Source: Halobellus captivus (GTDB lineage Archaea > Halobacteriota > Halobacteria > Halobacteriales > Haloferacaceae). Taken from it: a stretch of 64,000 bases of DNA. Positions within the stretch are counted from its first letter, which is position 1. Each line of letters begins with the position of its first letter. The notes beneath the pieces are model-generated. The model searched no databases. It saw only the letters and a list, made by a program, of their open reading frames with translations, and was not told the origin of the DNA. Below are positions 142-17,775 of the stretch, piece after piece. The DNA is taken from assembly GCF_003697845.1 (NCBI RefSeq), contig NZ_RDQE01000003.1, forward strand, positions 149,174-213,173, in the 5' to 3' direction. A program made the translations under genes and the position numbers.

Positions 142-1142
142 TCGGCCACCCCCTCGGCCGTCGCCGACTCGTCGTCGGCTCTGGCGCGGCGGACCGCCTC
201 GGCCAGCGCGGGGCCGTACTCGTAGGCGTCGCCGACGATACCGATATCGGCGAAGTTGAAGATCCGCGCGTCGGGATCGGTGTTGATCGGGATCAGGTGG
301 TCGGCGTTCACCGAGCGCATGTGGTACGAGTCACCCGAGATCGCGCAGGGGACGTACAGCTCCACGTCGATCTCCTTGCCCGTCACGCCGATCTGCCGGT
401 CGTAGGGGACCCACCCTTCGTCCGACGGCGGGCGGGAGGCCCCGACGGCGGCACCGAACGCGTCGGCGAGCTCATCGATCAGCTCGAACCCGTCCGCGCC
501 GCCGAGGCCGAACCCGCCGGCGACGATGCGCCGCGCCTTCGAGAGGTCGTCCTCCGGGACTTCGAGCGTCTCGACGTGTCGGAGCCGGTCGTCGTCGGTC
601 ACGTCGACCTCGACCGTTCGGCCCGTGGGATCGCCCTCGGGCGGCTGGTCGGGCGTCCCCAGCGCTTCGGTGTTCAGCGTCACGACGGGTGGCTCCCGCT
701 CGAAGGCGAACTCCGCGTACGCACGGCCGCCGTAGGCGGGTCGCCCCCCGAGCAGTTCGCCATCCCGCACGCGGAGCAGACAGTCGGTGACGCAGACCCC
801 TCGCTGACGGCGCGCCGTCGCCGCCGCGAGGTCGGCGCCATCGGCAGTGTCGGGCAACAGGACGGCACGGGCATCCTCGGTGAGTTCGGCCAGCGCTTGC
901 GACCGTGCGTGGACACCCGCCGCGCCCGAGGCAAACGTGCCGGCCGGCCGGGTCACGTGCAGTACCTCGTCAGGGGACCCTGCCGCCACGTCGTCCGGCG
1001 CGACGATGCCGTCGAAGGCGACGGCGAAGACATCGGGCGGCTCGGAGACCGAGTCCGCGTCACCGAGCGCCTCGGCGAGTCGGTGCGCTTCGTCCAGCAG
1101 TGCGATATCGTCCGCGTCGGGAACCGCAACGATCTGGCTCAT
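138..1142 (-). CDS. etfA: Electron transfer flavoprotein alpha subunit (EtfA/FixB)
   Basis: A 334-residue protein of normal family length. The C-terminal FAD-binding domain starts near residue 243 and shows the family signatures PYDRQIGVTGK, LYVPCAISG and INTDPDARIFNFADIGIVGD. The N-terminal domain (about 1-195) is the weakly conserved alpha/beta half that packs against the beta subunit. ETF is a soluble heterodimer that collects electrons from flavin dehydrogenases and gives them to an ETF-quinone oxidoreductase. It starts 16 bp after the flavin oxidoreductase stop and overlaps FixC by 4 bp, so the three genes form one operon. The beta subunit (FixA/EtfB) is not in the window and must lie further left or elsewhere. 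Confidence 0.93.
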   Translation of the reverse strand: MSQIVAVPDADDIALLDEAHRLAEALGDADSVSEPPDVFAVAFDGIVAPDDVAAGSPDEVLHVTRPAGTFASGAAGVHARSQALAELTEDARAVLLPDTADGADLAAATARRQRGVCVTDCLLRVRDGELLGGRPAYGGRAYAEFAFEREPPVVTLNTEALGTPDQPPEGDPTGRTVEVDVTDDDRLRHVETLEVPEDDLSKARRIVAGGFGLGGADGFELIDELADAFGAAVGASRPPSDEGWVPYDRQIGVTGKEIDVELYVPCAISGDSYHMRSVNADHLIPINTDPDARIFNFADIGIVGDAYEYGPALAEAVRRARADDESATAEGVAE

Positions 1143-1158: not shown

Positions 1159-3096
1159 TCATGTCGATAGCTCCCGGGCGAGCATCTCGCCGTCGTAGAT
1201 CGCCTTGTCGATCAGTCGCGGTGCGACACAGTCGCCGATGCGGTGGACCGAACCGGCCGCGAACCCCTGTTCCTCCAGCGCGCCGGCGAGGCCGGTCCGA
1301 GCCTCCCGGCGCTCGGCTACGACGAGCGAATCGGCGGACACAGTGTCTACGTCCTCGGAGTAGACGTTGAGCAACTGCGCGGTGTTGTCCTCGAAGCCAA
1401 TGACGGTGGCGTGGGTCTCGATGTCGACGTCGTGTTCGTACAACGTCTCCATGAACGGCGGGACGTTCGTGCCCTCCAGTTGGTCGCCCGGGTGGTAGGA
1501 GGTCGTCACGAACGTCACGTCGTGGTCGGCCGCGAGGTACTCTGCGACGCCGACCCCCGCGGCGTGTTTGTTGTTGTCGAAAACGATCACCGAGCCGCCG
1601 ACTGCCTCGCCCTGTAACACGTCCCACGAGCGGTGGACGTCCGGCCCCTGGAGATCCGGCTGGCTCTCACTGGCTCCGATGGCGACGATGACGTCGTCCC
1701 ACGCGTTGGGATCGACGTCCTCCGGGACGACCTCGGTGTCGGTCTCGACGGTTACGTCGCGGTTGCCGAGTTGGTTTTTGAGGTTTCGGACCGCGTCGCC
1801 GAACTCCTGTCTGGAGTCGACCCGTGTCGCGATGTTCGACTGCCCGCCGAGCTCGGTCTCACGCTCACGGATGGTGACCTGATGGCCGAGATCTGCGGCC
1901 GTCACCGCGAACGAGAGCCCTGCCGGCCCTCCACCGACGACGAGTACGTCCCGCGGCGTCGATGCTGGTTCGCGGTCCTCGATGTGGGGGATCCTCGTCT
2001 CCCGGCCGGAGCGCGGCGTCTGAATACAGCCAACGTGGCCGTTGGTGTGGATCCCGCCCAGACAGTTCTGATTGCACGCGATACAGTGTGTCACCTCCTC
2101 GTCCGCGCCACGCCGGACTTTCCGGACCGTGTCGGCGTCGGCGATGAGCTGGCGACACATCCCGACGAAGTCCGCCCGGCCCTCCTCCAGCACGTCGTTG
2201 GCCTTGGTGAGGTCGTTGATCCGGCCGGCGGCGATGACCGGGATGTCGACCTCCTCACGCGCCGCGCCGTAGTACTCGGAGGTGTACCCCAGCGGCGCGT
2301 GCATCGGGGCGTCGGTGATGTGCAGCTTCGAGATGGTGGCGATGTCGGAGTCGATGAAGTCAAGACTCGGATGGAGTCGTCGGATCACCTCGACCGCGTA
2401 GTCGTAGTCGTAGCCACCCTCCTCCATCTCGTCAAGCGTGAGGCGGATCCCGACCGGGAACTCCTCACCGACGCGGTCCCGGATCGCTTCGACCACCTCG
2501 TTGACGAGGCGGACGCGGTTGTCGATCGAGCCGCCGTAGTCATCGTCGCGGGTGTTGTATTTCGGGGAGAGGAACTGTCGAAGGATCCCGTCATGTCCCG
2601 CCTTTAGTTCGAGACCGTCGAGGTTTCCCTGCTTGACGTGTTCAGCGGTCTTGGCGAAACCGAGTTTGACTTCCTCGATATCCTCGCGCTCCATGCGTTT
2701 TGGCATCTCATAGCCGAACTCCGAGGGGACCGCCGACGGCGCCCACGTCTCCCGCATGGCGTGCTCGCCGGTGTCCTCGCCGCCGGTGTGCTGGAGCTGG
2801 GCGAACACCTTCGTCCCGTGCTCGTGGACTGCGTCCGCGATCATTTTCAATCGTGGAATCACGTCCGGATCGTATCCCGAGGCGTACATAGGGTTCGACG
2901 CACTCGGGTGGACGAGCATACTTGACGGCCCGACGATGAGCCCGACGCCGCCACGAGCCCTGGCCGCGTAGTACGCGGCGTCACGCTCGGTCGGCAGGCC
3001 GTCCTCCGCGAACCCCGTCTCGTGGGCGAGGAACACCGTTCGATTCGGGATAGTCACCGATCCGATCCGTCTCGGTGTGAAGAGCATGTCTGGCAT
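1159..3096 (-). CDS. NADH:flavin oxidoreductase, TMADH / 2,4-dienoyl-CoA reductase type
   Basis: A 645-residue protein with the three-part layout of trimethylamine dehydrogenase and bacterial 2,4-dienoyl-CoA reductase. An FMN TIM barrel spans about 1-330, four cysteines at 338, 341, 345 and 357 (C-x2-C-x3-C-x11-C) would bind a 4Fe-4S cluster, and an FAD/NAD Rossmann domain begins with VVGGGPAG near 386. The barrel keeps the family segment RQFLSPKYNTR...DDYGG and AGHDGIL at the active site. TMADH gives its electrons to ETF, and this gene leads an operon with ETF alpha and FixC, so ETF is a plausible acceptor. The start is ATG 3096; an in-frame GTG at 3120 and ATG at 3087 are alternatives. The substrate is not known. 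Confidence 0.85.
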   Translation of the reverse strand: MPDMLFTPRRIGSVTIPNRTVFLAHETGFAEDGLPTERDAAYYAARARGGVGLIVGPSSMLVHPSASNPMYASGYDPDVIPRLKMIADAVHEHGTKVFAQLQHTGGEDTGEHAMRETWAPSAVPSEFGYEMPKRMEREDIEEVKLGFAKTAEHVKQGNLDGLELKAGHDGILRQFLSPKYNTRDDDYGGSIDNRVRLVNEVVEAIRDRVGEEFPVGIRLTLDEMEEGGYDYDYAVEVIRRLHPSLDFIDSDIATISKLHITDAPMHAPLGYTSEYYGAAREEVDIPVIAAGRINDLTKANDVLEEGRADFVGMCRQLIADADTVRKVRRGADEEVTHCIACNQNCLGGIHTNGHVGCIQTPRSGRETRIPHIEDREPASTPRDVLVVGGGPAGLSFAVTAADLGHQVTIRERETELGGQSNIATRVDSRQEFGDAVRNLKNQLGNRDVTVETDTEVVPEDVDPNAWDDVIVAIGASESQPDLQGPDVHRSWDVLQGEAVGGSVIVFDNNKHAAGVGVAEYLAADHDVTFVTTSYHPGDQLEGTNVPPFMETLYEHDVDIETHATVIGFEDNTAQLLNVYSEDVDTVSADSLVVAERREARTGLAGALEEQGFAAGSVHRIGDCVAPRLIDKAIYDGEMLARELST

Positions 3097-3133
3097 AGCT
3101 TGGCAGTGGTTCTCTATCACCTTTTGTCCGGAT

Positions 3134-3182: not shown

Positions 3183-3207
3183 TTACAACCCATTGTGGGA
3201 TGCTGGC

Positions 3208-5196
3208 ATGGATATAGTATACCCGTTCGCCGGGATCGTCGACCAGACGGCGATGAAACGGGCGTTGTTAGTCAATGCCGTCAACCCTGACGTGAGCGGT
3301 GTGCTCCTTCGCGGTGAACGCGGAACGGCCAAGTCGACCGCCGTTCGGGCACTGACGGACGTATTGCCGCAGATCGAAGTCGTCGCGGACTGTCCCTACG
3401 GGTGTCAGCCGGACGCCCCTGACCGGATGTGTTCGGACTGCCGGGAGCGACACGAGGCTGACGAGGACCTCTCGACGGAGCGACGACAGATGCGCGTGGT
3501 GGATCTCCCGCTGAACGCCTCGGAGGACCGTGTGGTCGGCAGTATCGACCTCCAGCGGGCCGTCCGATCGGGCGAGTCGACGTTCGAGCCGGGGATCCTC
3601 GCGGAGGCCAACCGCAACATCCTCTACGTCGACGAGGTGAACCTCCTGGACGATCACATCGTCGACGTCCTGCTCGACGCGGCGGCGATGGGCGAAAACA
3701 TCGTCGAACGTGAGGGCGTCTCCTTCCGGCACCCCGCGGAGTTCGTCCTTGTGGGGACCATGAACCCCGAAGAGGGGGGGCTACGACCGCAGCTGCTCGA
3801 TCGGTTCGACATCGTCGTGGACGTCGAGGCTAGCGACGACCCTGCCGAGCGGGTCAAGATCGCCGAACGCCGCGAGGCGTTCGACGCGGACCCGGAAGGG
3901 TTCCACGCCGAGTATGCGGCTGAACAGGACGCACTCCGTGAGCAGGTTCGGGCCGCGAGAGAGCTCGTCGAGCGCGTCGAGATGCCCGAGGAGCGACAGC
4001 GCGACGCGTCCTACGACGCACTCCGAAAGCGCGCCCACGGCATGCGGGCGGACATCGCCGTCTCGCGGATCGCTCGCGCCATCGCTGCGCTCGAGGGCGA
4101 GGCGGAAGTCGCCGACGCTCACGTCTCGGAGGCGCAGTACTTCGCGTTCCCACACCGCGTCGAGGGCGTCCCGGAGATGTCCTTCGGTGAAGCGGCGCTC
4201 TCGACCGGGAACGACGAGGAGGCCGAAGAGGGTGAGGACGACGACGATGAGCCCGAAGGCGACGACTCCGCCGACCAGGAGGGTGGGGGGATCCCCATCG
4301 CCGAGGGTGAGGAGTCCTACACGGTCGACCGGACTGCTATCGACCCGCCGAAAGACCGGACGATGCGGAGCGCACTCGCACGACGGACCCCCTCGCGGGT
4401 CGACGTTCGCAGCGGCCGGTACGTCCGCTCGCGCATCCAGGAGGACGTCGACGACGTGGCCATCGACGCCACGTTGCGTGCGGCAGCGCCGCACCAGCGA
4501 CAGCGGGGGCGGGGGGACGACGATCTCGTGATCGAACCCCGCGATCTCCGGCAGAAGCTCCGCGAGCGGACTGCCCGGGCGCTGGTGGTGTTCGCCGTCG
4601 ACGCTAGCGGGAGCGTGATGAGCGGCCGACAGATGATGGAGACCAAACGCGGCTTGCTCTCGCTGATCGAGGACGCCTACCGCGCCCGGAACCGAGTCGC
4701 CGTCATCGTGTTCCGGGGCGAGGACGCGTTCACGCTGGTCGAACCGACCCGGAACCACCGCCGCGCCCGTGACGCGGTCTCGCGCCTGACCGTCGGCGGC
4801 AACACGCCGCTGGCCCACGGACTCGTCGAGGCGTACCAGCTGGTGCAGCGAGAGAAGCGCCGGGATCAGGACCTCTATCCGCTCGTCGTGGTGCTGTCGG
4901 ACGGCCAGTCGAACGTCGAGTACCGCGAGGACGGCGACGGAAAGGAGGACGCGTTCCGGGCCGCAGCGCTGTTCGACGAGGACGACATCCCCTCGGTGTT
5001 CGTTGACACGGGCCACCAGATCGACACCACGCCCGACGAGATCTGGACCGACCGGAAAGCTAGGCGCATGAAGCGTAAACGCCACGAGCGGAATCGCGAG
5101 TTCGCAGCCACGATGGGTGCGGACTACCTGCCGCTGATCGACCTGCCGCGCGACGTCGATCTCGAAGCGCTCGACTGGGAGGAAGGAACCGCATAG
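3208..5196 (+). CDS. ChlI-ChlD fusion: AAA+ ATPase with VWA domain (magnesium/cobalt chelatase type)
   Basis: A 662-residue AAA+ plus von Willebrand A protein. The ATPase half has Walker [10 protein letters not shown] (36-44), four cysteines (62, 66, 75, 78) that could hold a metal, Walker B with [12 protein letters not shown] (about 138-149), sensor 1 VGTMNPEEG and the LRPQLLDRF arginine region. An acidic linker (about 335-360) joins it to a VWA domain with a complete MIDAS start DASGS (465-469) and a later GGNTPLAHG. This is the ChlI/ChlD layout of magnesium or cobalt chelatase motor subunits, which power metal insertion by a large CobN/ChlH subunit. No such subunit is in the window. ATG 3208 is chosen because a TATA box is correctly spaced for it; an in-frame TTG at 3193 is less likely. 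Confidence 0.85.
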   Translation: MDIVYPFAGIVDQTAMKRALLVNAVNPDVSGVLLRGERGTAKSTAVRALTDVLPQIEVVADCPYGCQPDAPDRMCSDCRERHEADEDLSTERRQMRVVDLPLNASEDRVVGSIDLQRAVRSGESTFEPGILAEANRNILYVDEVNLLDDHIVDVLLDAAAMGENIVEREGVSFRHPAEFVLVGTMNPEEGGLRPQLLDRFDIVVDVEASDDPAERVKIAERREAFDADPEGFHAEYAAEQDALREQVRAARELVERVEMPEERQRDASYDALRKRAHGMRADIAVSRIARAIAALEGEAEVADAHVSEAQYFAFPHRVEGVPEMSFGEAALSTGNDEEAEEGEDDDDEPEGDDSADQEGGGIPIAEGEESYTVDRTAIDPPKDRTMRSALARRTPSRVDVRSGRYVRSRIQEDVDDVAIDATLRAAAPHQRQRGRGDDDLVIEPRDLRQKLRERTARALVVFAVDASGSVMSGRQMMETKRGLLSLIEDAYRARNRVAVIVFRGEDAFTLVEPTRNHRRARDAVSRLTVGGNTPLAHGLVEAYQLVQREKRRDQDLYPLVVVLSDGQSNVEYREDGDGKEDAFRAAALFDEDDIPSVFVDTGHQIDTTPDEIWTDRKARRMKRKRHERNREFAATMGADYLPLIDLPRDVDLEALDWEEGTA

Positions 5197-5234
5197 TCTG
5201 AACTACCGCGACGAAACGGAGTCGACCACGATCG

Positions 5235-6326
5235 ATGACCGACCACGACATCACACACGACACGCCGACGACCGAGGAGGAATCGCAGGCCACGGGAACG
5301 TTCCCGTTCACGGCCATCGTCGACCAGACCGAGATGAAACGCGCCCTGGTGCTGAACGCCATCAACCCCGACGTCGGTGGCGTACTGATCCGGGGCGAGC
5401 GTGGAACGGCCAAATCCACCGCCGTCCGCGCGCTGGTGGAGGTGTTACCCGACGTCACCGTCGTCGCGGACTGTCCCTACGGCTGTCCCCCCGACGACCC
5501 CGACCGAATGTGCGACGACTGCCGCGAGCGCCACGACGCCGGCGAGCGCCTCCCCACGGAGACGCGGGCGATGCGCGTGGTGGACCTGCCGCTGAACGCC
5601 TCGGAGGATCGCGTCGTCGGCAGTATCGACCTCGAACGCGCGGTACAGGCAGGGGAACGGGAGTTCGAGCCGGGAATCCTCGCGGAGGCCAACCGCAACA
5701 TCCTCTACGTCGACGAAGTGAACCTCCTGGACGACCACATCGTCGACGTGCTGCTCGACGCGGCGGCGATGGGCGAGAACATCGTCGAGCGCGAGGGCGT
5801 CTCCTTCCGGCATCCAGCGGAGTTCATTCTGGTCGGGACGATGAACCCCGAAGAGGGGGATCTCCGACCCCAGCTTCTCGACCGGTTCGGCCTCGTCGTC
5901 GACGTCGAGGGGGTCACCGAGGTGGACGACCGAGTCGAGATCAGCCGCCGGCGCGCGGCGTTCGAGGCCGATTCCGAGTCGTTCCGCGCGGAGTACGACG
6001 ACGAGCAGGCGGGGCTCCGGAGCGACATCTCTGCCGCCCGGGAGCGACTCGACGAGGTTACTCTCGGCGACGACGTGGCCAAGCTGATCGCCGGGATGAA
6101 CATCGAACTCGACGTCGACGGTCACCGCGGCGACATCACGCTCAGGCGCGCTGCCCGAACCTTGGCAGCGTTCGAAGGCGACGACGAAGTCACCGTCCGC
6201 ACCGTGCGCCGCGTCGCACGGATGGGCCTCGAACATCGTCTCCAGCGGCTCCCCTTCGAGGAGGAAGAAAAGGACATCATGAGCGTCTTCCACGACGTTC
6301 GACGCGATCTCGGCCTCGAGGACTGA
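5235..6326 (+). CDS. ChlI-type AAA+ ATPase without VWA domain, paralogue of the upstream gene
   Basis: A 363-residue protein closely similar to the ATPase half of the gene 38 bp upstream. It has the same Walker [10 protein letters not shown], the same C-P-Y-G-C...C-x2-C cysteine cluster, the same Walker B and VGTMNPEEG. It has about 20 extra, polar N-terminal residues and ends after the AAA lid, with no VWA domain. Chelatase motors combine I and D subunits, so this could be the separate I subunit that forms rings with the I-D fusion. The tight spacing and shared strand suggest one transcript. A methylotrophy- or protein-assembly-type MoxR function is less likely given the cysteine cluster typical of BchI/ChlI. 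Confidence 0.85.
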
Positions 6327-6508: not shown

Positions 6509-7330
6509 ATGCCAGAGTACGACTTCAGCGGCAAGGTGGCGTTCGTCACCGGTGCCGGTCACGGTCAGGGACGCTCGCACGCACAGCACTACGCGGAACA
6601 CGGCGCCGACGTCGTCGTCACCGACATCTGCGAGAACATCGAGACGAACCCGTATGACATGAGTACACCCGACGAACTCGAGGAGACGGTCGACCTCGTC
6701 GAGGACGAAGGGCAGGAGGCGCTGGCGCTCCAGATGGACGTACGGGAGGAGGACGAAGTCGAAGCCGCCGTCGAGGAGGCGATCGATCACTTCGGCGAGA
6801 TCGATTTCCTCGCCAACAACGCGGGCATCTTCAACGCCGCCGACGCGACGGAGATGAGCGAGCAGCAGTGGGACGAGATGATCGACACGAACCTGAAGGG
6901 CGTCTGGCTCTGCTCGAAGCACGTCGGCCAGCACTTCATCGAGCGCGGCGACGGCGGCAAGATCATCTCGACGGCATCGACGGCCGCGTTCACGGGCTCC
7001 CCCGGGAACGGTCACTACGTTGCGACCAAACACGGAGTACGCGGCCTGACGAAGACGCTGGCGCTGGAACTCGCCGAGTACGACGTCAACGTCAACGCCG
7101 TCGCACCGACCGGGATGGATACGCCGATGATCTCCGGTTACGTCGAAGCCTACGGCGACGAACTCCTCGAGGAGACTATGGCGATGACCGGGCCGGCGAA
7201 CGTGTTCGAGCCCGGGGAGATGCTCCAGCCCAAGGAGATCAGCGAGGCGTACATGTGGCTCTCGAGCGACGCCGCCCAGTACGTCACCGGCACGACGCTG
7301 AAAGTGGACGCTGGCATGACAGCGAAGTGA
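6509..7330 (+). CDS. Short-chain dehydrogenase 1 of the tandem array (mycofactocin-dependent SDR type)
   Basis: A 273-residue classical SDR. It has the NAD-binding motif TGAGHGQG (14-21), NNAG (103-106), the active-site Asn128 and the catalytic set Ser157, Tyr170 and Lys174. The first motif followed by RSHA, the extra segment after strand 2 (NPYDMSTPDELEET, about 47-60) and the ending YVTGTTLKVDAG match the SDR subfamily TIGR03971, in which the nicotinamide cofactor is held tightly and re-oxidised by an outside carrier. Start ATG 6509 aligns with all the paralogues (M-x-x-Y-D-F-S-G-K-V); upstream in-frame codons would add a non-conserved tail. It likely oxidises a secondary alcohol; substrate unknown. 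Confidence 0.88.
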   Translation: MPEYDFSGKVAFVTGAGHGQGRSHAQHYAEHGADVVVTDICENIETNPYDMSTPDELEETVDLVEDEGQEALALQMDVREEDEVEAAVEEAIDHFGEIDFLANNAGIFNAADATEMSEQQWDEMIDTNLKGVWLCSKHVGQHFIERGDGGKIISTASTAAFTGSPGNGHYVATKHGVRGLTKTLALELAEYDVNVNAVAPTGMDTPMISGYVEAYGDELLEETMAMTGPANVFEPGEMLQPKEISEAYMWLSSDAAQYVTGTTLKVDAGMTAK

Positions 7331-7339
7331 TCCAGGACG

Positions 7340-8164
7340 ATGGCCGAATACGACTTCAGCGGCAAGGTGGCGTTCGTCACCGGCGCCGCACATGGACAGG
7401 GCGAATCGCACGCGGTCAACTACGCGAAGAACGGTGCGGATGTCGTCGCCGTCGACCTCAACCGGAACAAGGAGACGGTCCCGTACGACCTCGGTACCGC
7501 GGACGAGCTCGAAGCGACCGCCGAGGCGGTCCGAGAGCACGGACAGGAGGCGCTTACCGTCGAAGCCGACGTCTCCGACGAGGCCCAAGTCGAAGCGGCG
7601 GTCGAAGCGGCGATCGACGAGTTCGGCAAGATCGACATCCTCGCGAACAACGCCGGGATCGAGTCGTTTTCCGAGGCCGTAGAGCTCGACGAGCGGATGT
7701 GGGACGAACTCCTCGACACGAACCTCAAGGGGATCTGGCTGTGCGCCAAACACGTCGGCCAGCACTTCATCGAGCGCGGTGACGGCGGCAAGATCGTCAA
7801 CACCGCGTCGGTGTCGGGGATGACCGGTATCCCGCTCGGCAACGCGCACTACGTCGCCTCCAAGCACGGCGTGATCGGCCTCACGAAAACGCTGGCGCTC
7901 GAGCTGGCCGAGTACGACGTGAACGTCAACGCGGTCGCGCCGGGCGGGATCGACACGCCGATGGTCACCGGACTGATCGAGGCCTACGGCGAGGAGGTAC
8001 TGGGCGAGTCTCAAGAGCTCTCGGGTCCATGGAACATCTTCGACGAGGAGGGGATGCAGGACTCCCAGTCGATCACCGACGCGTATCTCTGGCTCTCGAG
8101 CGACGCCGCCCGCTACGTCACCGGCATCACGATCCCCGTTGACGCCGGCTTCACGGCGAAATGA
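7340..8164 (+). CDS. Short-chain dehydrogenase 2 of the tandem array (mycofactocin-dependent SDR type)
   Basis: A 274-residue paralogue that starts 9 bp after SDR1 stops. It keeps TGAAHGQG, NNAG, the Asn in DTNLKG and the S...HYVASKHG catalytic region, with the subfamily insertion VPYDLGTADELEAT. It differs from its neighbours in the substrate loop, with PGGIDTPMV rather than PTG-DTPMI and PWNIFDEEGMQDSQS near the C-terminus. That divergence in otherwise near-identical proteins points to different substrates rather than simple dosage. The short spacing implies co-transcription with SDR1. Confidence 0.88.
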   Translation: MAEYDFSGKVAFVTGAAHGQGESHAVNYAKNGADVVAVDLNRNKETVPYDLGTADELEATAEAVREHGQEALTVEADVSDEAQVEAAVEAAIDEFGKIDILANNAGIESFSEAVELDERMWDELLDTNLKGIWLCAKHVGQHFIERGDGGKIVNTASVSGMTGIPLGNAHYVASKHGVIGLTKTLALELAEYDVNVNAVAPGGIDTPMVTGLIEAYGEEVLGESQELSGPWNIFDEEGMQDSQSITDAYLWLSSDAARYVTGITIPVDAGFTAK

Positions 8165-8186
8165 ACCACGACAGAACACGAAGACA

Positions 8187-9008
8187 ATGGTAAGCTACGA
8201 CTTCAGCGGCAAGGTGGCGTTCGTCACCGGCGCCGCACACGGGCAGGGGAGATCGCACGCACAGCACTACGCGAGACACGGCGCCGACGTCGTCGTCACT
8301 GACGTCGGGGAGAACCTTGATCACGTCCCCTACGACATGGGGACCACGGACGAACTGGAGGAGACCGCCCGCATAGTTGAGGACGAGGGGCAGGACGTGC
8401 TCGCGATCCAGATGGACGTTCGTGAGGAGGAACGAGTCGAGGCGGCGGTCGATCAAGCCTTGGAGGAGTTCGGTCGGATCGATATCCTCGCGAACAACGC
8501 CGGTATCTGGCCGATGGCGGATCTGGTCGAGATGGACGAGGCGCTCTGGGACGTGGTAATCGACACCGTTCTCAAGGGTGTCTGGCTCTGCTCGAAACAC
8601 GTCGGCCAGCACTTCATCGACCGTGGCGACGGCGGGAAGATCGTCTCCACCTCCTCGACCGCCGGTCTCGTCGGTGCACCCGGGGCTGGCCACTACGTCG
8701 CGGGCAAACACGGCGTCATCGGACTGACGAAGACGCTCGCTTTGGAACTAGCCGAGTACGACGTCAACGTCAACGCAGTCTGTCCGACGGCGCTGGACAG
8801 TCCGGGAATGAACAACTACATCGAGACGTACGGCCCGGAGATGCTCGAGGAGATGGGTGAGATGACCGGGCCGATGAACGTGTTCGAACCGGGCGAGATG
8901 ATCGAGGAGCAGGACATCAGCGAGGCGTACATGTGGCTCTCCAGCGACGCTGCACGCTACGTCACGGGTATCGCATTACCCGTCGATGCGGGAGCGACCG
9001 CAAAATGA
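8187..9008 (+). CDS. Short-chain dehydrogenase 3 of the tandem array (mycofactocin-dependent SDR type)
   Basis: A 273-residue paralogue starting 22 bp after SDR2. It has TGAAHGQG, NNAG, the catalytic S-x12-Y-x3-K around STAGLVGAPGAGHYVAGKHG, and PTALDSPGM in place of the DTPMI motif of its neighbours. One notable change is DTVLKG instead of DTNLKG: the usual active-site Asn of classical SDRs is Val here, so the proton relay may be altered. Its bases 8199-8306 are identical to 9043-9150 of SDR4, a sign of recent duplication or gene conversion. Start ATG 8187 gives the conserved MVSYDFSGKV; an upstream in-frame ATG at 8139 overlaps SDR2. Confidence 0.87.
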   Translation: MVSYDFSGKVAFVTGAAHGQGRSHAQHYARHGADVVVTDVGENLDHVPYDMGTTDELEETARIVEDEGQDVLAIQMDVREEERVEAAVDQALEEFGRIDILANNAGIWPMADLVEMDEALWDVVIDTVLKGVWLCSKHVGQHFIDRGDGGKIVSTSSTAGLVGAPGAGHYVAGKHGVIGLTKTLALELAEYDVNVNAVCPTALDSPGMNNYIETYGPEMLEEMGEMTGPMNVFEPGEMIEEQDISEAYMWLSSDAARYVTGIALPVDAGATAK

Positions 9009-9030
9009 TCACAGTCAAATCACGAGATAG

Positions 9031-9855
9031 ATGGTAACATATGACTTCAGCGGCAAGGTGGCGTTCGTCACCGGCGCCGCACACGGGCAGGGGAGATCGC
9101 ACGCACAGCACTACGCGAGACACGGCGCCGACGTCGTCGTCACTGACGTCTCCGGGGATGTCGAATCCGTCCCCTACGATCTCGGAACGGAGGACGAACT
9201 CAACGAGACCGCCAGCATGGTCGAGGACGAGGGCCAGGAGGCACTCGCGATCGGGATGGACGTTCGCAAGGAGGACGAAGTCAAATCGGCCGTCGAGGAG
9301 GCGGTCGATCACTTCGGCCGGATCGATATCCTCGCCAACAACGCTGGGATCGTCACCATCTCGGACATGACCGAGATGGACGAGGCGATGTGGGACGAGA
9401 TGATCGACACGAACCTCAAGGGCGTGTGGCTCTGCGCGAAACACGTCGGCCAGCACTTCATCGAGCGGGGTGGTGGCGGGAAGATCGTCTCTACCTCATC
9501 GACAAACGGGCTCATCGGTTCACCGGGGAACGGTCACTACGTCGCAGCGAAGCACGGCGTCATCGGCTTGACGAAGACGCTAGCGCTCGAGCTGGCCGAG
9601 TACGACGTCAACGTCAACGCCGTCTGTCCGACTGTCGTAAACACGCCGATGATCACTGGAATGGCAGAGGCCTACGGCGAGGAAGTCCTCGCGGATATCG
9701 GAGAGCTCACGGGTCCGATGAACGTCTTCCAGCCCGAAGATCCGGGTATCGAGTCGTCCGACATCAGCGAGGCATTCCTGTGGCTCTCCAGCGACGCCGC
9801 ACGCTATGTGACTGGGATCGCACTCCCGATAGACGCGGGCACCTCCGCGAAGTAA
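9031..9855 (+). CDS. Short-chain dehydrogenase 4 of the tandem array (mycofactocin-dependent SDR type)
   Basis: A 274-residue paralogue starting 22 bp after SDR3. All SDR landmarks are present: TGAAHGQG, NNAG, DTNLKG and the STNGLIGSPGNGHYVAAKHG catalytic region, with PTVVNTPMI in the substrate loop. The insertion VPYDLGTEDELNET after the second strand is the subfamily mark. It shares an exact 108-bp block with SDR3 at its 5' end, then diverges. The conserved RSHAQHYARHGADVVVTDV stretch is the same as in SDR3. Confidence 0.88.
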   Translation: MVTYDFSGKVAFVTGAAHGQGRSHAQHYARHGADVVVTDVSGDVESVPYDLGTEDELNETASMVEDEGQEALAIGMDVRKEDEVKSAVEEAVDHFGRIDILANNAGIVTISDMTEMDEAMWDEMIDTNLKGVWLCAKHVGQHFIERGGGGKIVSTSSTNGLIGSPGNGHYVAAKHGVIGLTKTLALELAEYDVNVNAVCPTVVNTPMITGMAEAYGEEVLADIGELTGPMNVFQPEDPGIESSDISEAFLWLSSDAARYVTGIALPIDAGTSAK

Positions 9856-9861
9856 TCGACG

Positions 9862-10683
9862 ATGGTAAGCTACGACTTCAGCGGCAAGGTGGCGTTCGTC
9901 ACCGGTGCCGCACATGGACAGGGTGAATCGCACGCACAGCACTACGCGAGACACGGCGCCGACGTCGTCGTCACCGATATCGGTCACAACGTCGATTCAG
10001 TCCCGTACGACCTCGGGACGTCCGACGAACTGGAGGAGACCGCGGGTTTGGTCGAGGACGAGGGCCAAGAGGCCCTGACCATCGAGATGGACGTCCGTAG
10101 CGAAGACGAGGTAGCGTCCGCCGTCGACGAAGCCATCGACCACTTCGGACAAGTCGATATCCTCGCCAACAACGCCGGGATTGGGTCGATGTCGGACGCG
10201 GTCGAAATGGACGAGGCGATGTGGGACGAGATGATCGACACGAACCTCAAGGGCGTGTGGCTCTGCGCGAAACACGTCGGTCAGCACTTCATCGACCGTG
10301 GCGACGGCGGAAAGATCGTCTCGACTGCTTCGACTGCAGGAGCGATCGGAATCCCTTCACAGGGGCACTACGTCGCCGCGAAACACGGCGTCGTCGGCTT
10401 GACGAAGACGCTAGCGCTCGAACTCGCGGAGTACGACGTCAACGTCAACTGTATCGGGCCGACGGGCATCGATACGCCGATGATTTCCGGATTCAACGAA
10501 GCATACGGTGAAGAGGCACTCGGTGAGATGGCGGAATTAACCGGCCCATGGAACGTGTTCGGCGACGGCGGGATGCTCGATTCGAAAGACATCAGTGAAG
10601 CGTACATGTGGCTCTCCAGCGACGCCGCACGCTACGTCACCGGCATCTATCTGCCAGTTGATGCCGGCTTCCTCGCGAAGTAG
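9862..10683 (+). CDS. Short-chain dehydrogenase 5 of the tandem array (mycofactocin-dependent SDR type)
   Basis: A 273-residue paralogue starting only 6 bp after SDR4. Motifs are complete: TGAAHGQG, NNAG, DTNLKG, STAGAIGIPSQGHYVAAKHG and PTGIDTPMI. Its 5' end is a mosaic: the bases around codons 17-24 resemble SDR2 (GQGESHA) while those just after match SDR3 and SDR4 (QHYARHGADVVVTD). The ending YVTGIYLPVDAGFLAK is normal. It closes the uninterrupted five-gene run and is followed by a convergent small membrane protein gene. Confidence 0.88.
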   Translation: MVSYDFSGKVAFVTGAAHGQGESHAQHYARHGADVVVTDIGHNVDSVPYDLGTSDELEETAGLVEDEGQEALTIEMDVRSEDEVASAVDEAIDHFGQVDILANNAGIGSMSDAVEMDEAMWDEMIDTNLKGVWLCAKHVGQHFIDRGDGGKIVSTASTAGAIGIPSQGHYVAAKHGVVGLTKTLALELAEYDVNVNCIGPTGIDTPMISGFNEAYGEEALGEMAELTGPWNVFGDGGMLDSKDISEAYMWLSSDAARYVTGIYLPVDAGFLAK

Positions 10684-10708
10684 CGGCCTCCGTTTTCACT
10701 TTTCCAGC

Positions 10709-10996
10709 TCAGTCCTCCCCACCCCAGTACGACGCCAGTCCCACCGCCATCGCCGTCCCGGCGACGAACGCGATCGCCAGTGTGGCCGGCTCTACGGCAT
10801 CACGGTACACCCACGCCAGCGAGCCGGCGACGAGGACGTTCACGCTTCCCCACACCGCGTTCGCTACCGCGCTCGACTCCGGACCCATCGGCGTCATGTG
10901 GCGCTCGCCGGTGATCCCCTTGACGAAGTGTGGAACCGCGTTCGCGCCGAACAGGCCGATCACGGCGTACACGACGAGTTCGACAACTGTTGGCAT
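10709..10996 (-). CDS. Small integral membrane protein, function unknown
   Basis: A 95-residue protein with three predicted membrane segments: about 3-23 (ELVVYAVIGLFGANAVPHF), about 46-64 (AVWGSVNVLVAGSLAWVY) and about 70-90 (ATLAIAFVAGTAMAVGLAS). A short polar loop with HFVKGITGERHMTPMG follows the first segment. Codon use and hydrophobicity support a real gene. It lies between SDR5 and SDR6 on the opposite strand. I do not recognise a characterised family; the loop composition is reminiscent of small haloarchaeal membrane proteins of unknown role. Confidence 0.7.
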   Translation of the reverse strand: MPTVVELVVYAVIGLFGANAVPHFVKGITGERHMTPMGPESSAVANAVWGSVNVLVAGSLAWVYRDAVEPATLAIAFVAGTAMAVGLASYWGGED

Positions 10997-11081
10997 ACGT
11001 ATCCCTGCGGGTCGCGTCGTAATAGTCCTAAGGCCGACACCACCGCAAGCTAATTCGGCTCGCAGCGCGAACGACCCGACC

Positions 11082-11900
11082 GTGCCTCGCTACGAGTTCG
11101 ACGGACAGGTCGCGTTCGTCACCGGCGCCGGCCGCGGACAGGGGCGCTCCCACGCCCAGCACTACGCGAAACACGGCGCCGACGTGGTCGTACTCGGCGA
11201 GAGCCGCGGTATCGAAACCAGCCCGTATCCGCTCGCGTCGGCGGCCGAGCTCGAGGAGACGGCCAGGCTCGTCGAAGACGAGGAGCAGGAGGCGCTCGTC
11301 GTCCGTGCGGACGTTCGCGACGGGGATCGCGTCGAAGCTGCGGTCTCGACTGCGCTCGACGCGTTCGGACGGATCGACATCCTCGCCAACAACGCCGGGA
11401 TCTGGAACGTCACCGACCTCGTCGAGATGGACGAGCAGCGCTGGGACGAGCTGGTGGACTCGGACCTCAAGGGCGCGTGGCTCTGTGCGAAACACGTCGG
11501 CCAGCACTTCATCGAGCGCGGCGACGGCGGCAAGATCGTCTCGACCGCGTCGACGGCCGGTCTCGTCGGCGCGAAACGATCGGGTCACTACGCGGCCGCC
11601 AAACACGGCGTCGTCGGCCTGACGAAGGCGCTCGCGCTCGAACTGGCGCCCCACGACGTGAACGTCAACGCGGTCGCCCCGACCGGCGTCGCGACGCCGA
11701 TGATCGACGGCATCCTCGAGACCGTTGGCGAGGAAGCGCTCTCGTCGGTGTCCGACGCCAGCGGATCGATGAACGTGCTCGACGAACAACTGATCGAGCC
11801 ACGCGACGTGAGCGAGGCGTACATGTGGCTCTCCAGCGACGCCGCACGCTACGTCACCGGCGTGACTCTCCCCGTCGACGCGGGCATGCTTGCAAAGTAA
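11082..11900 (+). CDS. Short-chain dehydrogenase 6 (mycofactocin-dependent SDR type), separated from the array
   Basis: A 272-residue SDR of the same subfamily but the most divergent copy, with GC-richer codons. It has TGAGRGQG, the insertion SPYPLASAAELEET (closest to the bacterial subfamily pattern), NNAG, STAGLVGAKRSGHYAAAKHG and PTGVATPMI. The residue before LKG in the active-site segment is Asp (SDLKG) where the others have Asn, an unusual change at the SDR Asn site. Start is GTG 11082, which aligns with the paralogue N-termini (V-P-R-Y-E-F-D-G-Q-V); frames upstream are not conserved. It is divergent from the small membrane protein gene. Confidence 0.85.
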   Translation: MPRYEFDGQVAFVTGAGRGQGRSHAQHYAKHGADVVVLGESRGIETSPYPLASAAELEETARLVEDEEQEALVVRADVRDGDRVEAAVSTALDAFGRIDILANNAGIWNVTDLVEMDEQRWDELVDSDLKGAWLCAKHVGQHFIERGDGGKIVSTASTAGLVGAKRSGHYAAAKHGVVGLTKALALELAPHDVNVNAVAPTGVATPMIDGILETVGEEALSSVSDASGSMNVLDEQLIEPRDVSEAYMWLSSDAARYVTGVTLPVDAGMLAK

Positions 11901-12114: not shown

Positions 12115-14025
12115 TTACAGCCGACGAGCGAGCAGTTCGCCATCGTAGTATGCCCGGTCGAGTTTTCGGGGGGAAACGGCGTCGCCGATCCGGTAGACGT
12201 CGTCGCGACGCTCGTCGAGTTCGAGGTAGAGCGACTCGTCGGCCTGTCTGCGCCCGGCGACGACGACCGTCTCCGGCTCACGGCTCTCGGTGTCACCGGT
12301 CAGCGTGTTCCGAAGTATGGCCGTCCCGTCCGCGTCGACCGCATCCACCACGCGGTTCCCAGTGAACGCCGCCCCTTGTGCCTGCAGCGCGGCGACGAAC
12401 CCCGGGAGGTTGGGCTGTTCTGTTCGGAACGCGGGGTAGTGGTCGCTGGAGACCATCTCTACCGATGCCCCACGACCGAGGAGTTCCAGTCCGGTCTGGA
12501 CGGTGATCACCCAGCGGTTCTCGTCGAAGAGCAGCACGTCCTCGCCCACCTCGGCCCCCTCGAGCACGTCGAACGCGTTCACGACGTTGCCCTCGAACCG
12601 TTTCGAGGTGTCGGGCCGGGTTGCCCCGGTGGCGACGACGACAGCATCCCACGATGGATCCACGTCGTCAGCGCTCACTGGTGACTCCAGCTCGACGGTC
12701 ACGCCGGTGTCATGGACGGCGGCTTCGAGATCCTCCGCGGCACGTTCGAACGGTGCAAGTGGTCCCTGTGCTGCGAGCCCGAGTTGCCCGCCGAGACTGT
12801 CGCTCGCCTCGCGCAGGGTCACGTCGTGCCCCCGCCGGGCTGCGACGGCGGCGAAACGGAGGCCGGCAGGTCCACCGCCCACGACGAGGACCTCCTGCGG
12901 GAGCGCCGCATCGTCGATGTCCCCGAGTGCCGGGAGTTCGGACTCGCGACCCGTTCTGGGATTCACAACGCACTCGACGTGGCCGCCATGAGCGTGGCCG
13001 TAGACGGCCTCCAGACACTTCTGGTTACACTGGATACAGCGGTTGTAGTGCTCCCCGTCCGTAGCCTTCGCGAGCGTCTCGGCGTCGGCCAGCAACTGGC
13101 GGGTGAAACCTACGAACTCGGCACCTGCGTCGAACAGCGCGTCGGCGTCGTCGACGGTCGTGAACGGTAAGCGACCGATAACAGGCACATCGATCGCATC
13201 GGCAACTGTGGCGATCGGGTCGATCAGATTTGGCGCTTCTGCCGAGACGCCGGCATGGGTCTGGTTGTAGGTCGCGTGGCTTCCCACTGTACATGAGAGG
13301 TAGTCGAATCCCGAGAGAGCGTCGAGTATTTGGGGCACATCGTCGAACTCGTAACCGCCGTATTCTAATTCCGCGAGCGAAAGATGGAGACCGACCGGGC
13401 CGTCGATCCGGTCGTCGACGGCGTCGATCGCTTCGTTCACGAAGCGCGAGCGAGCGACCCAGTCACCGCCGTACTCGTCGTCCCGGGCGTTGTACCGCGG
13501 TGAGAGGAACTGCCGCAGCACCGAAAACGGGCCTGCAGTCAATTCGACGCCGTCGAAGCTAGCGGCGTCGAGGTTCGCTGCGGCGTCGCCGAATCCTGAC
13601 AATACCGCCTCGATGTCGTCACGGGTCATCGTCTTTGGCATCTCGTAGGCGGCATCTGAGGGTGATGCTGAGGGAGCCAGCTGGGGCTGCATCTCCCAGT
13701 CGCCGCGGGACTCCGCCCCCGTGTGGGTGAGTTGACCGATGATTTTGGCGTCGTGTTCGTGAACCGTATCGACGACGCTCCGTAGTGCCGGTATCGCATC
13801 GTCGTCGTATGCATTGACGAACGCTGATCCGCTGGCCGATGGGTGGACAAGCATCTCTGCAGGGCCGACGACGAGCCCCGCTCCACCGGCTGCGCGGGCA
13901 CCAAGATGGGCAGCGAGTGCCTCAGTCGGCCTACTGTCGTCGACGAATCGGGTACGAACCGGTCGGAAAACGCCACGATTCGGCACCGAAAGAGATCCGA
14001 TCGTTGCTGAACCGAAGAGATCCAT
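12115..14025 (-). CDS. NADH:flavin oxidoreductase, TMADH / dienoyl-CoA reductase type, second copy with altered active site
   Basis: A 636-residue relative of the gene at 1159-3096 with the same order: FMN barrel (about 1-320), cysteines 330, 333, 337 and 352 for a 4Fe-4S cluster, and FAD/NAD domain starting VVGGGPAG near 388. The barrel keeps RQFLSPRYNARDDEYGG. The active-site segment reads TAGPFSVLRQF where the first copy has KAGHDGILRQF, so the histidine is lost and chemistry may differ. Start ATG 14025 is set by a TATA box (AGTATAAC, minus strand, 14046-14053) at leaderless distance; an upstream ATG at 14070 would read through that promoter. It is divergent from the IclR-type regulator gene. 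Confidence 0.83.
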   Translation of the reverse strand: MDLFGSATIGSLSVPNRGVFRPVRTRFVDDSRPTEALAAHLGARAAGGAGLVVGPAEMLVHPSASGSAFVNAYDDDAIPALRSVVDTVHEHDAKIIGQLTHTGAESRGDWEMQPQLAPSASPSDAAYEMPKTMTRDDIEAVLSGFGDAAANLDAASFDGVELTAGPFSVLRQFLSPRYNARDDEYGGDWVARSRFVNEAIDAVDDRIDGPVGLHLSLAELEYGGYEFDDVPQILDALSGFDYLSCTVGSHATYNQTHAGVSAEAPNLIDPIATVADAIDVPVIGRLPFTTVDDADALFDAGAEFVGFTRQLLADAETLAKATDGEHYNRCIQCNQKCLEAVYGHAHGGHVECVVNPRTGRESELPALGDIDDAALPQEVLVVGGGPAGLRFAAVAARRGHDVTLREASDSLGGQLGLAAQGPLAPFERAAEDLEAAVHDTGVTVELESPVSADDVDPSWDAVVVATGATRPDTSKRFEGNVVNAFDVLEGAEVGEDVLLFDENRWVITVQTGLELLGRGASVEMVSSDHYPAFRTEQPNLPGFVAALQAQGAAFTGNRVVDAVDADGTAILRNTLTGDTESREPETVVVAGRRQADESLYLELDERRDDVYRIGDAVSPRKLDRAYYDGELLARRL

Positions 14026-14036
14026 GCTAATAGCTA

Positions 14037-14054
14037 TCAAGTAGTTATACTTGA
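14037..14054. promoter_or_regulatory. Perfect 7-bp inverted repeat over the promoter of the second flavin oxidoreductase (candidate operator)
   Basis: TCAAGTA (14037-14043), spacer GTTA, then TACTTGA (14048-14054). Flanking GCTATC on the left and GATAGC on the right extend the symmetry with a 3-nt length difference. It covers the minus-strand TATA box, so a bound protein would block transcription from 14025. The neighbouring IclR-family gene is the obvious candidate regulator. Confidence 0.6.
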
Positions 14055-14303
14055 AGATAGCGGCGTTCACTCATCTCTTCTTCTAGACTGAACAAACATC
14101 TTTAATTCACGATCTATGTTTAGCACAGCTGAACAATAATAAACGATCAACCATGATGAATAGGGTTGTTTTTGCCCCTTGGAGACAAGAATAGAGACTA
14201 AGTCAGAGAATCATCATAACTATAGAAAACCACGGCCTGATACAGTATAAAGAACGATCATTTATTCTGGTAGAACAGTCATCCATTCCAGCTATACAAC
14301 CAG

Positions 14304-14338: not shown

Positions 14339-15106
14339 ATGGGAACAAATAATAATAAGGAAGTAAGCGCAATCAGCCGGACGATTCGAATCGTCGAAAC
14401 GCTTCATGATCTTCAAATCGCCGGCGTCACCCAGATCGCCAATTCCGCAGAGTTACCAAAAAGTTCGGTATACAATCATCTCAGAACCCTTGAGAACAGA
14501 GGATACGTTATCAAGAATGATGGTGACTACGAACTAGGTCTACGTTTCCTCCCACTTGGTGAGGCTGCTAGACGGCGACTCGACATATATCGGGCTTCGC
14601 GTACTGAGATCGAACAACTTGGCGACGATACGGGAATCAACGCGTACCTATCTGTTGAGGAACGAGGACGGGCAACAGTGATTTTTCGCCACTTGGAGAA
14701 CGAGATTGACCTCGGCTCGATCGGAACGACAGTACCCTTGACTACATCGTCAATGGGAAAGGCAATTCTAGCACAACTTCCGCAAAAACGCATTGACGAG
14801 ATCATCGAACAACATGGGCTTCCCGAGATGACCGAGTCCAGTATCGTTGACAGGGATGGTCTCGACGAAGAGTTGGAACAGATCCGACAACAGGGCTTCG
14901 CTCTCGACAGGGGAGAACACGTCAAGCGACTTAGAGGCGTTGGTGCCCCTGTTTTGGGGCCTGACGGTGGGGTGTGTGGAGCAGTCAGCGTAGCGGGCCC
15001 GGAACGTGAGTTACAAGACGAGTTCTTCAATGAAGAACTTCCGGATACGGTTCTAGACACGACGAATATTATCGAGTTACGATTGATGGAGAATATGTCT
15101 GTGTAA
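14339..15106 (+). CDS. IclR-family transcriptional regulator
   Basis: A 255-residue protein with an N-terminal winged helix-turn-helix (about 15-80, containing GVTQIANSAELPKSSVYNHLRTL in pieces) and a C-terminal IclR effector domain (about 85-250, with VPLTTSSMGKAILAQLP, a near-invariant family stretch, and GVGAPVLGPDGGVCGAVSVAGP). Haloarchaeal IclR-type proteins often act as regulators of the adjacent catabolic genes. Base composition is clearly lower in GC than the flanking enzymes, with many A/T-ending codons, which suggests a separate origin or recent transfer. It most likely senses a substrate or intermediate of the SDR/flavin oxidoreductase pathway; that is inference from position. Confidence 0.9.
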   Translation: MGTNNNKEVSAISRTIRIVETLHDLQIAGVTQIANSAELPKSSVYNHLRTLENRGYVIKNDGDYELGLRFLPLGEAARRRLDIYRASRTEIEQLGDDTGINAYLSVEERGRATVIFRHLENEIDLGSIGTTVPLTTSSMGKAILAQLPQKRIDEIIEQHGLPEMTESSIVDRDGLDEELEQIRQQGFALDRGEHVKRLRGVGAPVLGPDGGVCGAVSVAGPERELQDEFFNEELPDTVLDTTNIIELRLMENMSV

Positions 15107-15965: not shown

Positions 15966-16997
15966 CTATAACAGCCGATACACGTTGGCCTCGTAGGTCT
16001 CCCGCACCTGGTCCCCCCAGTTGTGGGTGTAGGTGTCGATCACGTCGTCGGCGACGTCTCCGCGGAGGTATTTGACGACGCCACGGTCGCCGGTACGGTC
16101 CCTGAGGTGGGTGGTAAAGAAGTGTCTGAAGTAGTGGGGGGTGACGTTCTCGCCCGCTCCGCCGCCGGTTCGATACCAGCCCGCATCGCGGGCGTATCGC
16201 TCGACGATGTGACGGACCGCCTGGGGGTCGAGTCGCTCGCCCCACCCCTCCGACGTGCCGACGAAAAGCGGTCCGGCCGGAGACGTCGTGTCGGGTCGTA
16301 TCGCGAGCCACCGTTTCAAAACCGTGTGAAGTTCGTCGTCGACCGGTATCACCGTCTCCCGTTTGCGCTTGTTCGAGGCGGTACGGACCGCTCCGTTCAG
16401 CTCCTCTCCGACCGCCGCATCGGGAGTCACGTACAGCGAGTTCGGCCGATCCGTAAGCGCCGGACGCGTACCCAGCGGGTACGTCGTCTCGAGTTCCGGA
16501 TCCGCCACCGAGAGATCGCGAAGATCGAGGTTACAGAGCTCTCCCACCCGCATTCCGGTCTTCAGTAGCGTACAGACGAGCGCCCTATGGAGCGGATGGG
16601 TGATCCCGGCGACGAACGACCGCATTCGTGGGATCGATATGTCCCGTCGAGCGGGGTCCTTGTCTATCGTCTCGTCCATCTCCTCCATCACGAGCGTCAT
16701 CGGGTTTCCGTCGAAGACGCCGACCTCGGTCATGTACCCGTAAAAGCGGTGGAGATACGCCGCGTACGTCGCAACTGTGCTCTCCGCGAGGTCGCCTCGT
16801 AGCGAGTGGACGAACGCCATACAGTCCCGATGCGTCGCCGTCCGCGGAGTGGTCCCGTCGTCGAGAAACGCCTCATATCGCCTGAGAACGCGTTCGTAGG
16901 ACCCTCTCGTTCGATCCGTCTTCCCGTGATACAGTAGGTCCTCGATGAAGTAGCCGACCGGATCCTCGACGTTCTCCGTCGTCTGCGTGCTACTCAT
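15966..16997 (-). CDS. Tyrosine recombinase / integrase (XerC/D-like, phage integrase family)
   Basis: A 343-residue protein. The N-terminal SAM-like DNA-binding domain (about 10-95) contains RTRGSYERVLRRYEAFL. The catalytic domain carries the first arginine in KTGMRVGELCNLDLRDL, HYFRHFFTTHLRD for the H-x-x-R pair, and the nucleophile tyrosine in DTYTHNW near the C-terminus. It catalyses site-specific strand exchange, typically integration or excision of an element. Start ATG 16997 overlaps the upstream small gene by 8 bp; a longer in-frame reading would bury that gene. No tRNA target or att repeat was found nearby, so the element it once served is undefined. Confidence 0.88.
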   Translation of the reverse strand: MSSTQTTENVEDPVGYFIEDLLYHGKTDRTRGSYERVLRRYEAFLDDGTTPRTATHRDCMAFVHSLRGDLAESTVATYAAYLHRFYGYMTEVGVFDGNPMTLVMEEMDETIDKDPARRDISIPRMRSFVAGITHPLHRALVCTLLKTGMRVGELCNLDLRDLSVADPELETTYPLGTRPALTDRPNSLYVTPDAAVGEELNGAVRTASNKRKRETVIPVDDELHTVLKRWLAIRPDTTSPAGPLFVGTSEGWGERLDPQAVRHIVERYARDAGWYRTGGGAGENVTPHYFRHFFTTHLRDRTGDRGVVKYLRGDVADDVIDTYTHNWGDQVRETYEANVYRLL

Positions 16998-17370
16998 CGA
17001 CGAGGGTGTACCCTCCTTCGCGTCCGCTGTATCGGACGCGATCTCGTTTCTGTAGGGATTCCAACGTCTCCTCCAGTCTGTCCTCGAAGTCGTCGAACAC
17101 CGCGTCCACGAGATCGTCCCACGACGAGTGGCCGTCGGCGATCGCCGATTCGATCCGTGTTTCGAGGTCGTGACCCCCGGGGTTTGACCCCTTGGATCGG
17201 GTCTCCTCGGGGGTACTCCCCTCTCCGACCGTGAATCCACGTCTGCCGGCCTGTACCATCGTTCTGACGAACTCGCTCTGGGACATCCCGAGCTCGTCGG
17301 CGTGTCGTTGCCAGCGCGTTTTCTGATCGGCCGGAACGTACGTCTTCACCGATCGGCGGTCATCGCTCAT
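16990..17370 (-). CDS. DUF5805-like haloarchaeal protein paired with the integrase
   Basis: A 126-residue protein. The N-terminal part (about 1-45) reads SVKTYVPADQKTRWQRHADE then a short helix pair with MSQSEFVRTMVQAGRRG, which looks like a ribbon-helix-helix type DNA-binding element. The C-terminal half (about 65-126) is an acidic helical region ending GYTLVDE. This protein type is commonly found just before a tyrosine integrase in haloarchaea; I believe the family is DUF5805. It overlaps the integrase start by 8 bp, so the two are coupled. ATG 17370 is chosen by family alignment; in-frame ATGs at 17412 and 17430 are alternatives. A role in regulating the integrase or as a directionality factor is inference. 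Confidence 0.75.
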   Translation of the reverse strand: MSDDRRSVKTYVPADQKTRWQRHADELGMSQSEFVRTMVQAGRRGFTVGEGSTPEETRSKGSNPGGHDLETRIESAIADGHSSWDDLVDAVFDDFEDRLEETLESLQKRDRVRYSGREGGYTLVDE

Positions 17371-17436: not shown

Positions 17437-17775
17437 TCATTCTCAAACCTACTTTTACGCGGCTTTTTGGTTCGTATTTTCCGGATAACTCTTTTTTAGT
17501 CCCATATCCCCCGATTAATACACCTCCAGATATAGGTTCAGAACCCCGGATTAGTGATGTGGGATCGGATGCGGTGCGTTCGTGACCGATCTCTCGAGCG
17601 GGACGTCGTCATCGTCCATGATGTCGGGCTCCGTCTCGAGGACTTCTCGCGGAACGCTCGTCACTCGTTCGAGGATCACGCGCTCGATCCGTCGATCGAT
17701 CGGCCCTCGTCCGATCCGCCGAACCGGATAGTTCCCAGAGGAGGTCGGTCGCGCCTTTCGGTACGGGTTCGGGTC

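Follow-up and report, generated by a model that had tools for sequence, protein, structure and literature searches.

The mycofactocin system of mycobacteria comprises MftA-F and MftG. In it, MftD oxidatively deaminates the intermediate 3-amino-5-[(4-hydroxyphenyl)methyl]-4,4-dimethyl-2-pyrrolidinone (AHDP) to a redox-active keto-amide, and mutants without MftD contain no mycofactocin (PMC7491314). MftG re-oxidises the cofactor and links it to respiration; 25% of the genomes with MftC are without MftG, and what replaces it there has been asked (eLife 2025, PMC11778925). Clusters without mftD are on record as well: its absence from Saccharopolyspora clusters, in which TIGR03997 is present, was reported in 2024 and left unexplained in that study, which also names S. 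erythraea as producer of a methylated mycofactocin (PMC11162802). In haloarchaea, mycofactocin loci with several short-chain dehydrogenases/reductases (SDRs) have been known since 2011 from Haloterrigena turkmenica, for which five members of the SDR family TIGR03971 were listed; the accessible passages of that study do not discuss electron transfer flavoprotein (ETF), FixC/FixX or Old Yellow Enzyme (OYE) genes (Haft 2011, PMC3023750). Here we analyse a stretch of 64,000 nucleotides from Halobellus captivus (hereafter the window; positions 149174-213173 of contig NZ_RDQE01000003.1, cited below as C23, in a genome of 3.6 Mb), in which a panel of SDR genes belongs to a mycofactocin island that has neither MftD nor MftG, and in which an OYE/ETF/FixCX module probably stands in for them.

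The island shares with the mycobacterial system the MftA core, MftC, MftF and TIGR03971 SDRs; mycobacteria, however, use MftD and MftG, where the H. captivus island has OYE/ETF/FixCX and neither of those two. Plasmid pHTUR01 of Haloterrigena turkmenica has the same arrangement (mftE-A-B2-C-F, EtfB, FixX, FixC, EtfA, OYE, VWA, AAA, SDR array, SDR, OYE), whereas H. captivus possesses eight TIGR03971 SDRs and an extra SDR within the ETF operon. Similarly, plasmid pCBA1230-01 of Halolamina sp. CBA1230 matches the gene order of the window and its left flank almost throughout, down to the IclR gene and the SDR within the ETF operon, but carries six TIGR03971 SDRs and an MftF without methyltransferase fusion. 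The MftD-less clusters of Saccharopolyspora and Streptomyces likewise combine two OYE genes with EtfA-FixC-FixX-EtfB, SDR, MftF and MftE; on a Streptomyces plasmid the order is OYE, OYE, EtfA, FixC, FixX, EtfB, SDR, MftF, MftE, and the region read contains neither mftD nor mftG. They differ in having MftB instead of MftB2, a full SPASM domain in MftC and no annotated ChlI/ChlD, and the Streptomyces cluster has a single SDR as against eight here. NCBIfam already has named families for ETF and OYE proteins associated with mycofactocin. Our literature search, which lay mostly outside subscription journals, found no paper joining mycofactocin with ETF, or dealing with haloarchaeal MftC, MftD-OYE exclusion or an SDR ortholog panel. 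What is new is the shape of the system, without MftD and MftG and with a constant OYE/ETF/FixCX module, while haloarchaeal mycofactocin with several SDRs was already known.

The SDR genes of the window are the following (scores are for TIGR03971):

6509-7330, plus strand: SDR A, 326.9 bits; ortholog group of 4 genomes
7340-8164, plus strand: SDR B, 304.4 bits; ortholog group of 6 genomes
8187-9008, plus strand: SDR C, 320.4 bits; ortholog group of 7 rows
9031-9855, plus strand: SDR D, 328.8 bits; ortholog group of 6 genomes
9862-10683, plus strand: SDR E, 314.8 bits; ortholog group of 5 genomes
11082-11900, plus strand: SDR F, GTG start, 319.9 bits; ortholog group of 8 genomes

A previous sequence-only reading of this DNA had described five SDR genes head to tail with short gaps and a sixth beyond a small convergent gene. 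Indeed, the gaps measure 9 (A-B), 22 (B-C), 22 (C-D) and 6 bp (D-E), and an open reading frame of 95 codons at 10709-10996 on the minus strand precedes F. The six substrate-loop strings it gave are all exact; the VDAG ending that it held common to all six is present in five, gene D having IDAG. Its assignment to TIGR03971 agrees with our hidden Markov model comparison, in which this was the best family for all six proteins (304.4-328.8 bits, cut-off 300), and no better fit to SDR families that exchange their nicotinamide adenine dinucleotide (NAD) was found, the next non-mycofactocin SDR families scoring about 190-210 bits. The nearest solved structures are mycobacterial carveol dehydrogenases, a structure set in which NAD is held buried and non-exchangeably and the insertion is described (PMC5264612). 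The insertion, part of the NAD site, is present as claimed: the alignment across it is gap-free with 3oec and has one short gap with 3uve. Of the earlier interpretation, the TIGR03971 membership and the notion of a substrate panel stand, while the copy number rises from six to eight with two further TIGR03971 SDRs at C23:144214-145041 and 145064-145885, which lie 3-5 kb outside the window on its left. All TIGR03971 members over cut-off in the genome (n = 8) are confined to this one cluster; they share 61-80% pairwise identity, and the catalytic Ser and Tyr-x-x-x-Lys are kept in every copy.

That no maturase gene was in view had been a puzzle of the sequence-only reading. It was an effect of the window edge, and absence from the genome is ruled out: mftA, mftB2, mftC, mftF and an MftE-like gene lie on the same contig, 5-10 kb beyond the left edge.

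C23:139258-140043, minus strand: MftE-like gene, best family MftE, 164.9 bits, just under the cut-off of 172
C23:140281-140421: MftA, ending IDGICGVY, 33.1 bits (cut-off 25)
between MftA and MftC: MftB2 (NF043018), 131 bits (cut-off 62)
C23:140652-141629: MftC, 302 bits (cut-off 265)
C23:141633-143993: MftF fused to an FkbM-family methyltransferase domain, best family MftF, 274.9 bits, just under the cut-off of 280

Past MftF follow two SDRs; the minus strand then carries EtfB, an ordinary SDR, FixX, FixC, EtfA and OYE1, the last of which lies in the window. The whole island extends from C23:139258 to about 164279 (window -9915 to 15106). By curated cut-offs, the genome contains neither MftD (best match 27 bits against 470.85) nor MftG (34.8 bits against 387.45).

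The ETF, FixCX and OYE genes that flank the SDR panel are part of the same system, which had been overlooked before. Those reaching into the window are:

1-141, minus strand: 5' end of a FixC-like ETF:quinone oxidoreductase (whole gene C23:148001-149314; FixC/PRK10015 family, 266 bits)
138-1142, minus strand: EtfA/FixB-like protein, best NCBIfam family mft_etfA, 128 bits, under the cut-off of 240
1159-3120, minus strand: OYE1, a FadH/OYE flavoenzyme with flavin mononucleotide (FMN), 4Fe-4S and flavin adenine dinucleotide (FAD) domains, TIGR03997 (mycofact_OYE_2) best, 622 bits; the likely start is the Met at 3096
12115-14070, minus strand: OYE2, a second FadH/OYE flavoenzyme, TIGR03997 best, 441 bits; in 11/11 islands

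Both OYE proteins score under the TIGR03997 cut-off of 793 and are therefore related to that family rather than strict members of it. The FAD domain of EtfA is over cut-off for Pfam ETF_alpha (88.5 bits), while EtfB (mft_etfB, 84 bits), FixX (32) and the FixC-type protein (266) have these as best or near-best families, all under NCBIfam cut-offs. The OYE proteins have an FMN barrel, FAD-type domains and four iron-sulphur cysteines; both FadH and amine dehydrogenases are among their homologues.

Among 392 sampled haloarchaeal genomes of the order, MftC occurs in 11, from seven genera and four families (the pairs G012/G039 and G183/G213 are closely related and count for less). In all 11 islands mftA/B2/C/F occur together with EtfB, FixX, FixC, EtfA, OYE1 and OYE2, and none of these genomes has MftD or MftG over cut-off. 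Two islands are on named plasmids, the above-mentioned pHTUR01 and pCBA1230-01, which is consistent with horizontal spread. The fusion of MftF with an FkbM-family methyltransferase was observed in 4/11 islands (G000, G231, G352, G240); the added domain may methylate the sugar chain.

Eighty bacterial MftC loci were fetched for comparison. No locus had both MftD and OYE within about 10 kb of mftC, but this neighbourhood-only comparison left many loci unresolved, and the census was redone genome-wide in 50 of the genomes, picked by MftC similarity. Here MftD is over cut-off in 32 genomes and TIGR03997 in 15 (17 with near-misses), with no overlap (Fisher p = 3.6e-10, n = 50, kinship of the genomes ignored); of the three remaining genomes, one holds neither and two hold TIGR03997 near-misses, one of which is truncated at the end of its contig. 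On the MftC tree the MftD/OYE state changes at least 11 times, 7 of these changes being forced by well-supported branches, and of seven independent pairs six go in opposite directions and none in the same (p = 0.031). MftG is over cut-off in 11 of the 50 genomes, all of them with MftD, and in none of the 18 without. OYE is over cut-off in none of the 21 genomes that have MftD without MftG over cut-off, and it is present in 17 of the 18 MftD-less genomes, the two near-misses included. OYE presence thus follows the loss of MftD, not that of MftG. Together with the exclusion and the switches on the tree, this is what a recurrent takeover of a single function by a different enzyme would look like. 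Where the flanks of OYE-type loci could be read, ETF/FixC mostly adjoin OYE, even away from mftC, but not on one 10-kb contig; in Thermomicrobium roseum, mftD is present and the mycofactocin region has no OYE/ETF.

The haloarchaeal maturase itself is altered. In an alignment of 63 MftC proteins (52 bacterial and 11 haloarchaeal), 12 common cysteines are all present in 52/52 bacterial sequences. In 11/11 haloarchaeal sequences the CxxCx5C triplet and the last Cys are gone, the fourth Cys of the CxxCx5Cx3C motif being kept, and Thr replaces the first of the 12 cysteines, which lies outside the CxxxCxxC motif. Following the usual SPASM ligand assignment, we take the missing cysteines to be those of auxiliary cluster II, so that haloarchaeal MftC is predicted to have lost cluster II and kept cluster I.

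From these data we propose, with a probability of roughly 0.6, that the eight SDRs form the dehydrogenase panel of a complete haloarchaeal mycofactocin island in which OYE/ETF/FixCX replaces MftD and probably also MftG. Each SDR would oxidise its own alcohol and keep the hydride on its buried NAD, from where it would pass to mycofactocin produced by MftA/B2/C/F and the MftE-like peptidase, which are encoded alongside. The OYE/FadH-type flavoenzymes, together with EtfAB and FixCX, would carry out the oxidative deamination to the redox-active keto-amide, i.e. the MftD step, and the same module would probably re-oxidise reduced mycofactocin, with electrons flowing to ETF, FixC/FixX and the quinone pool. 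Trimethylamine dehydrogenase, one of the amine dehydrogenases related to the OYE proteins, donates electrons to ETF. Since Saccharopolyspora is MftD-less and S. erythraea makes a methylated mycofactocin, the MftD step must have another enzyme in the OYE type. A wider reading, to which we give somewhat less than an even chance, holds that two biochemically distinct routes lead to active mycofactocin. In one, MftD would deaminate the precursor and MftG or others would re-oxidise the cofactor; in the other, present in haloarchaea and many actinobacteria, deamination and electron supply to quinone would fall to an OYE-type iron-sulphur flavoenzyme coupled to ETF and FixCX, which in haloarchaea would operate downstream of an MftC devoid of cluster II.

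Several observations weigh against replacement of MftD by this module. For the corresponding bacterial mycofactocin families, the archaeal OYE, EtfA and EtfB stay under the curated cut-offs, and both MftD and OYE are missing from one bacterial MftC genome (G396). Several of the 50 bacterial genomes, many of which are metagenome-assembled, are of doubtful completeness. The FMN-holding cysteine of histamine dehydrogenase is missing from the OYE proteins, which are homologous to, not members of, the trimethylamine/histamine dehydrogenases. In OYE1, Gly and Ile stand at the positions aligned with Tyr166 and His252 of FadH, taken here as its proton-donor Tyr and active-site His; in OYE2 these positions hold Ser/Ala and mixed residues (His in some OYE2). 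With these residues mostly gone, the chemistry of the OYE proteins is unreadable from their relatives. Finally, the altered MftC implies that the mycofactocin product may differ in archaea.

Alternatively, the module might only re-oxidise mycofactocin as a substitute for MftG, the MftD step being performed by another enzyme or not at all, with the cofactor left as amine or made differently. ETF with FixC/FixX is a classic route to quinone, the 18 MftD-less bacterial genomes and the 11 haloarchaea all lack MftG, and the many MftC genomes known to be without it call for a replacement. The 21 genomes with MftD and without MftG, however, have no OYE over cut-off; methylated mycofactocin is made by S. 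erythraea, from a genus of the MftD-less type, and the two OYE paralogues of each haloarchaeal island allow two jobs. We regard restriction to the MftG role as unlikely. Still less probable is a catabolic function, in which OYE would act as ene-reductase or desaturase on SDR products, e.g. terpenoids or steroids, with ETF/FixCX as its partner and with a shared pathway as the only link to mycofactocin. The closest solved structure of OYE1 is indeed 2,4-dienoyl-CoA reductase, and carveol dehydrogenases are among the relatives of the SDRs. The loss of the FadH proton-donor Tyr and, mostly, of the active-site His argues against a plain dienoyl-CoA reductase role, however, and a catabolic OYE predicts neither the exclusion of MftD through repeated switches nor a presence in 11/11 islands while SDR number ranges from 2 to 9.

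That the SDRs are ordinary NAD-exchanging dehydrogenases, tandem duplicates merely resembling TIGR03971, is very improbable, as all eight are over cut-off, share the insertion with the buried-NAD structures and belong to a family present in at least two copies in 11/11 haloarchaea with MftC and in more than one copy in 0/381 without, although 16 of the latter have exactly one such SDR, mostly over cut-off (such as G102 and G035), and in this class the family is thus not bound strictly to mycofactocin. In this survey six candidates were scored per genome, and the SDR counts were taken from separate island and tree analyses. An exclusive occurrence of TIGR03971 in mycofactocin genomes is ruled out for haloarchaea by these 16 genomes, and membership alone is therefore no proof of mycofactocin dependence. 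A tree of 62 SDRs places the six window genes in six different supported groups, each common to at least four genomes and several genera. Because these ortholog groups are separate and span genera, the panel is old, with its members kept apart, and a recent tandem duplication is ruled out. In some islands (L048:37593-38414; G056, G240, G213), SDR F is followed by a further, divergent SDR with about 30% identity to the panel.

The remaining island genes of the window are:

3193-5196, plus strand: ChlD/CobT-like AAA+ plus VWA protein, in 8/11 islands
5235-6326, plus strand: ChlI-like AAA+ ATPase, in 8/11 islands
10709-10996, minus strand: 95-residue hydrophobic protein, convergent, between SDRs E and F, in 7/11 islands (not G056, G012, G039, G354)
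14339-15106, plus strand: IclR-family regulator at the right edge of the island, same position in several islands

No chelatase large subunit was seen within the island beside the ChlD/ChlI-like pair (3193-6326), for which metal insertion or enzyme activation may be candidate roles, and no NCBIfam family matched the 95-residue protein. The ordinary SDR within the EtfB-FixX-FixC-EtfA-OYE1 operon (L031:16845-17624; best family PRK07231, over cut-off) occurs in seven islands and is missing from that of Haloterrigena. The island is flanked by IS6-family transposases at C23:137282-137917 and window 17551-18432, which share 49% identity; a tyrosine recombinase lies at window 15966-17240, and G+C content falls to 50-58% at the island edges.

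These insights from haloarchaea and bacteria make the repeated exchange of MftD for OYE/ETF a concrete candidate for filling two gaps, namely the replacement of MftG (PMC11778925) and the clusters without MftD (PMC11162802). The role of auxiliary cluster II in SPASM radical enzymes has been described as unclear (PMC9012708), and a haloarchaeal MftC without this cluster would be a natural test of it. Finally, the SDR panel, conserved with two to nine members per island, would offer matched enzymes for mapping substrate range.

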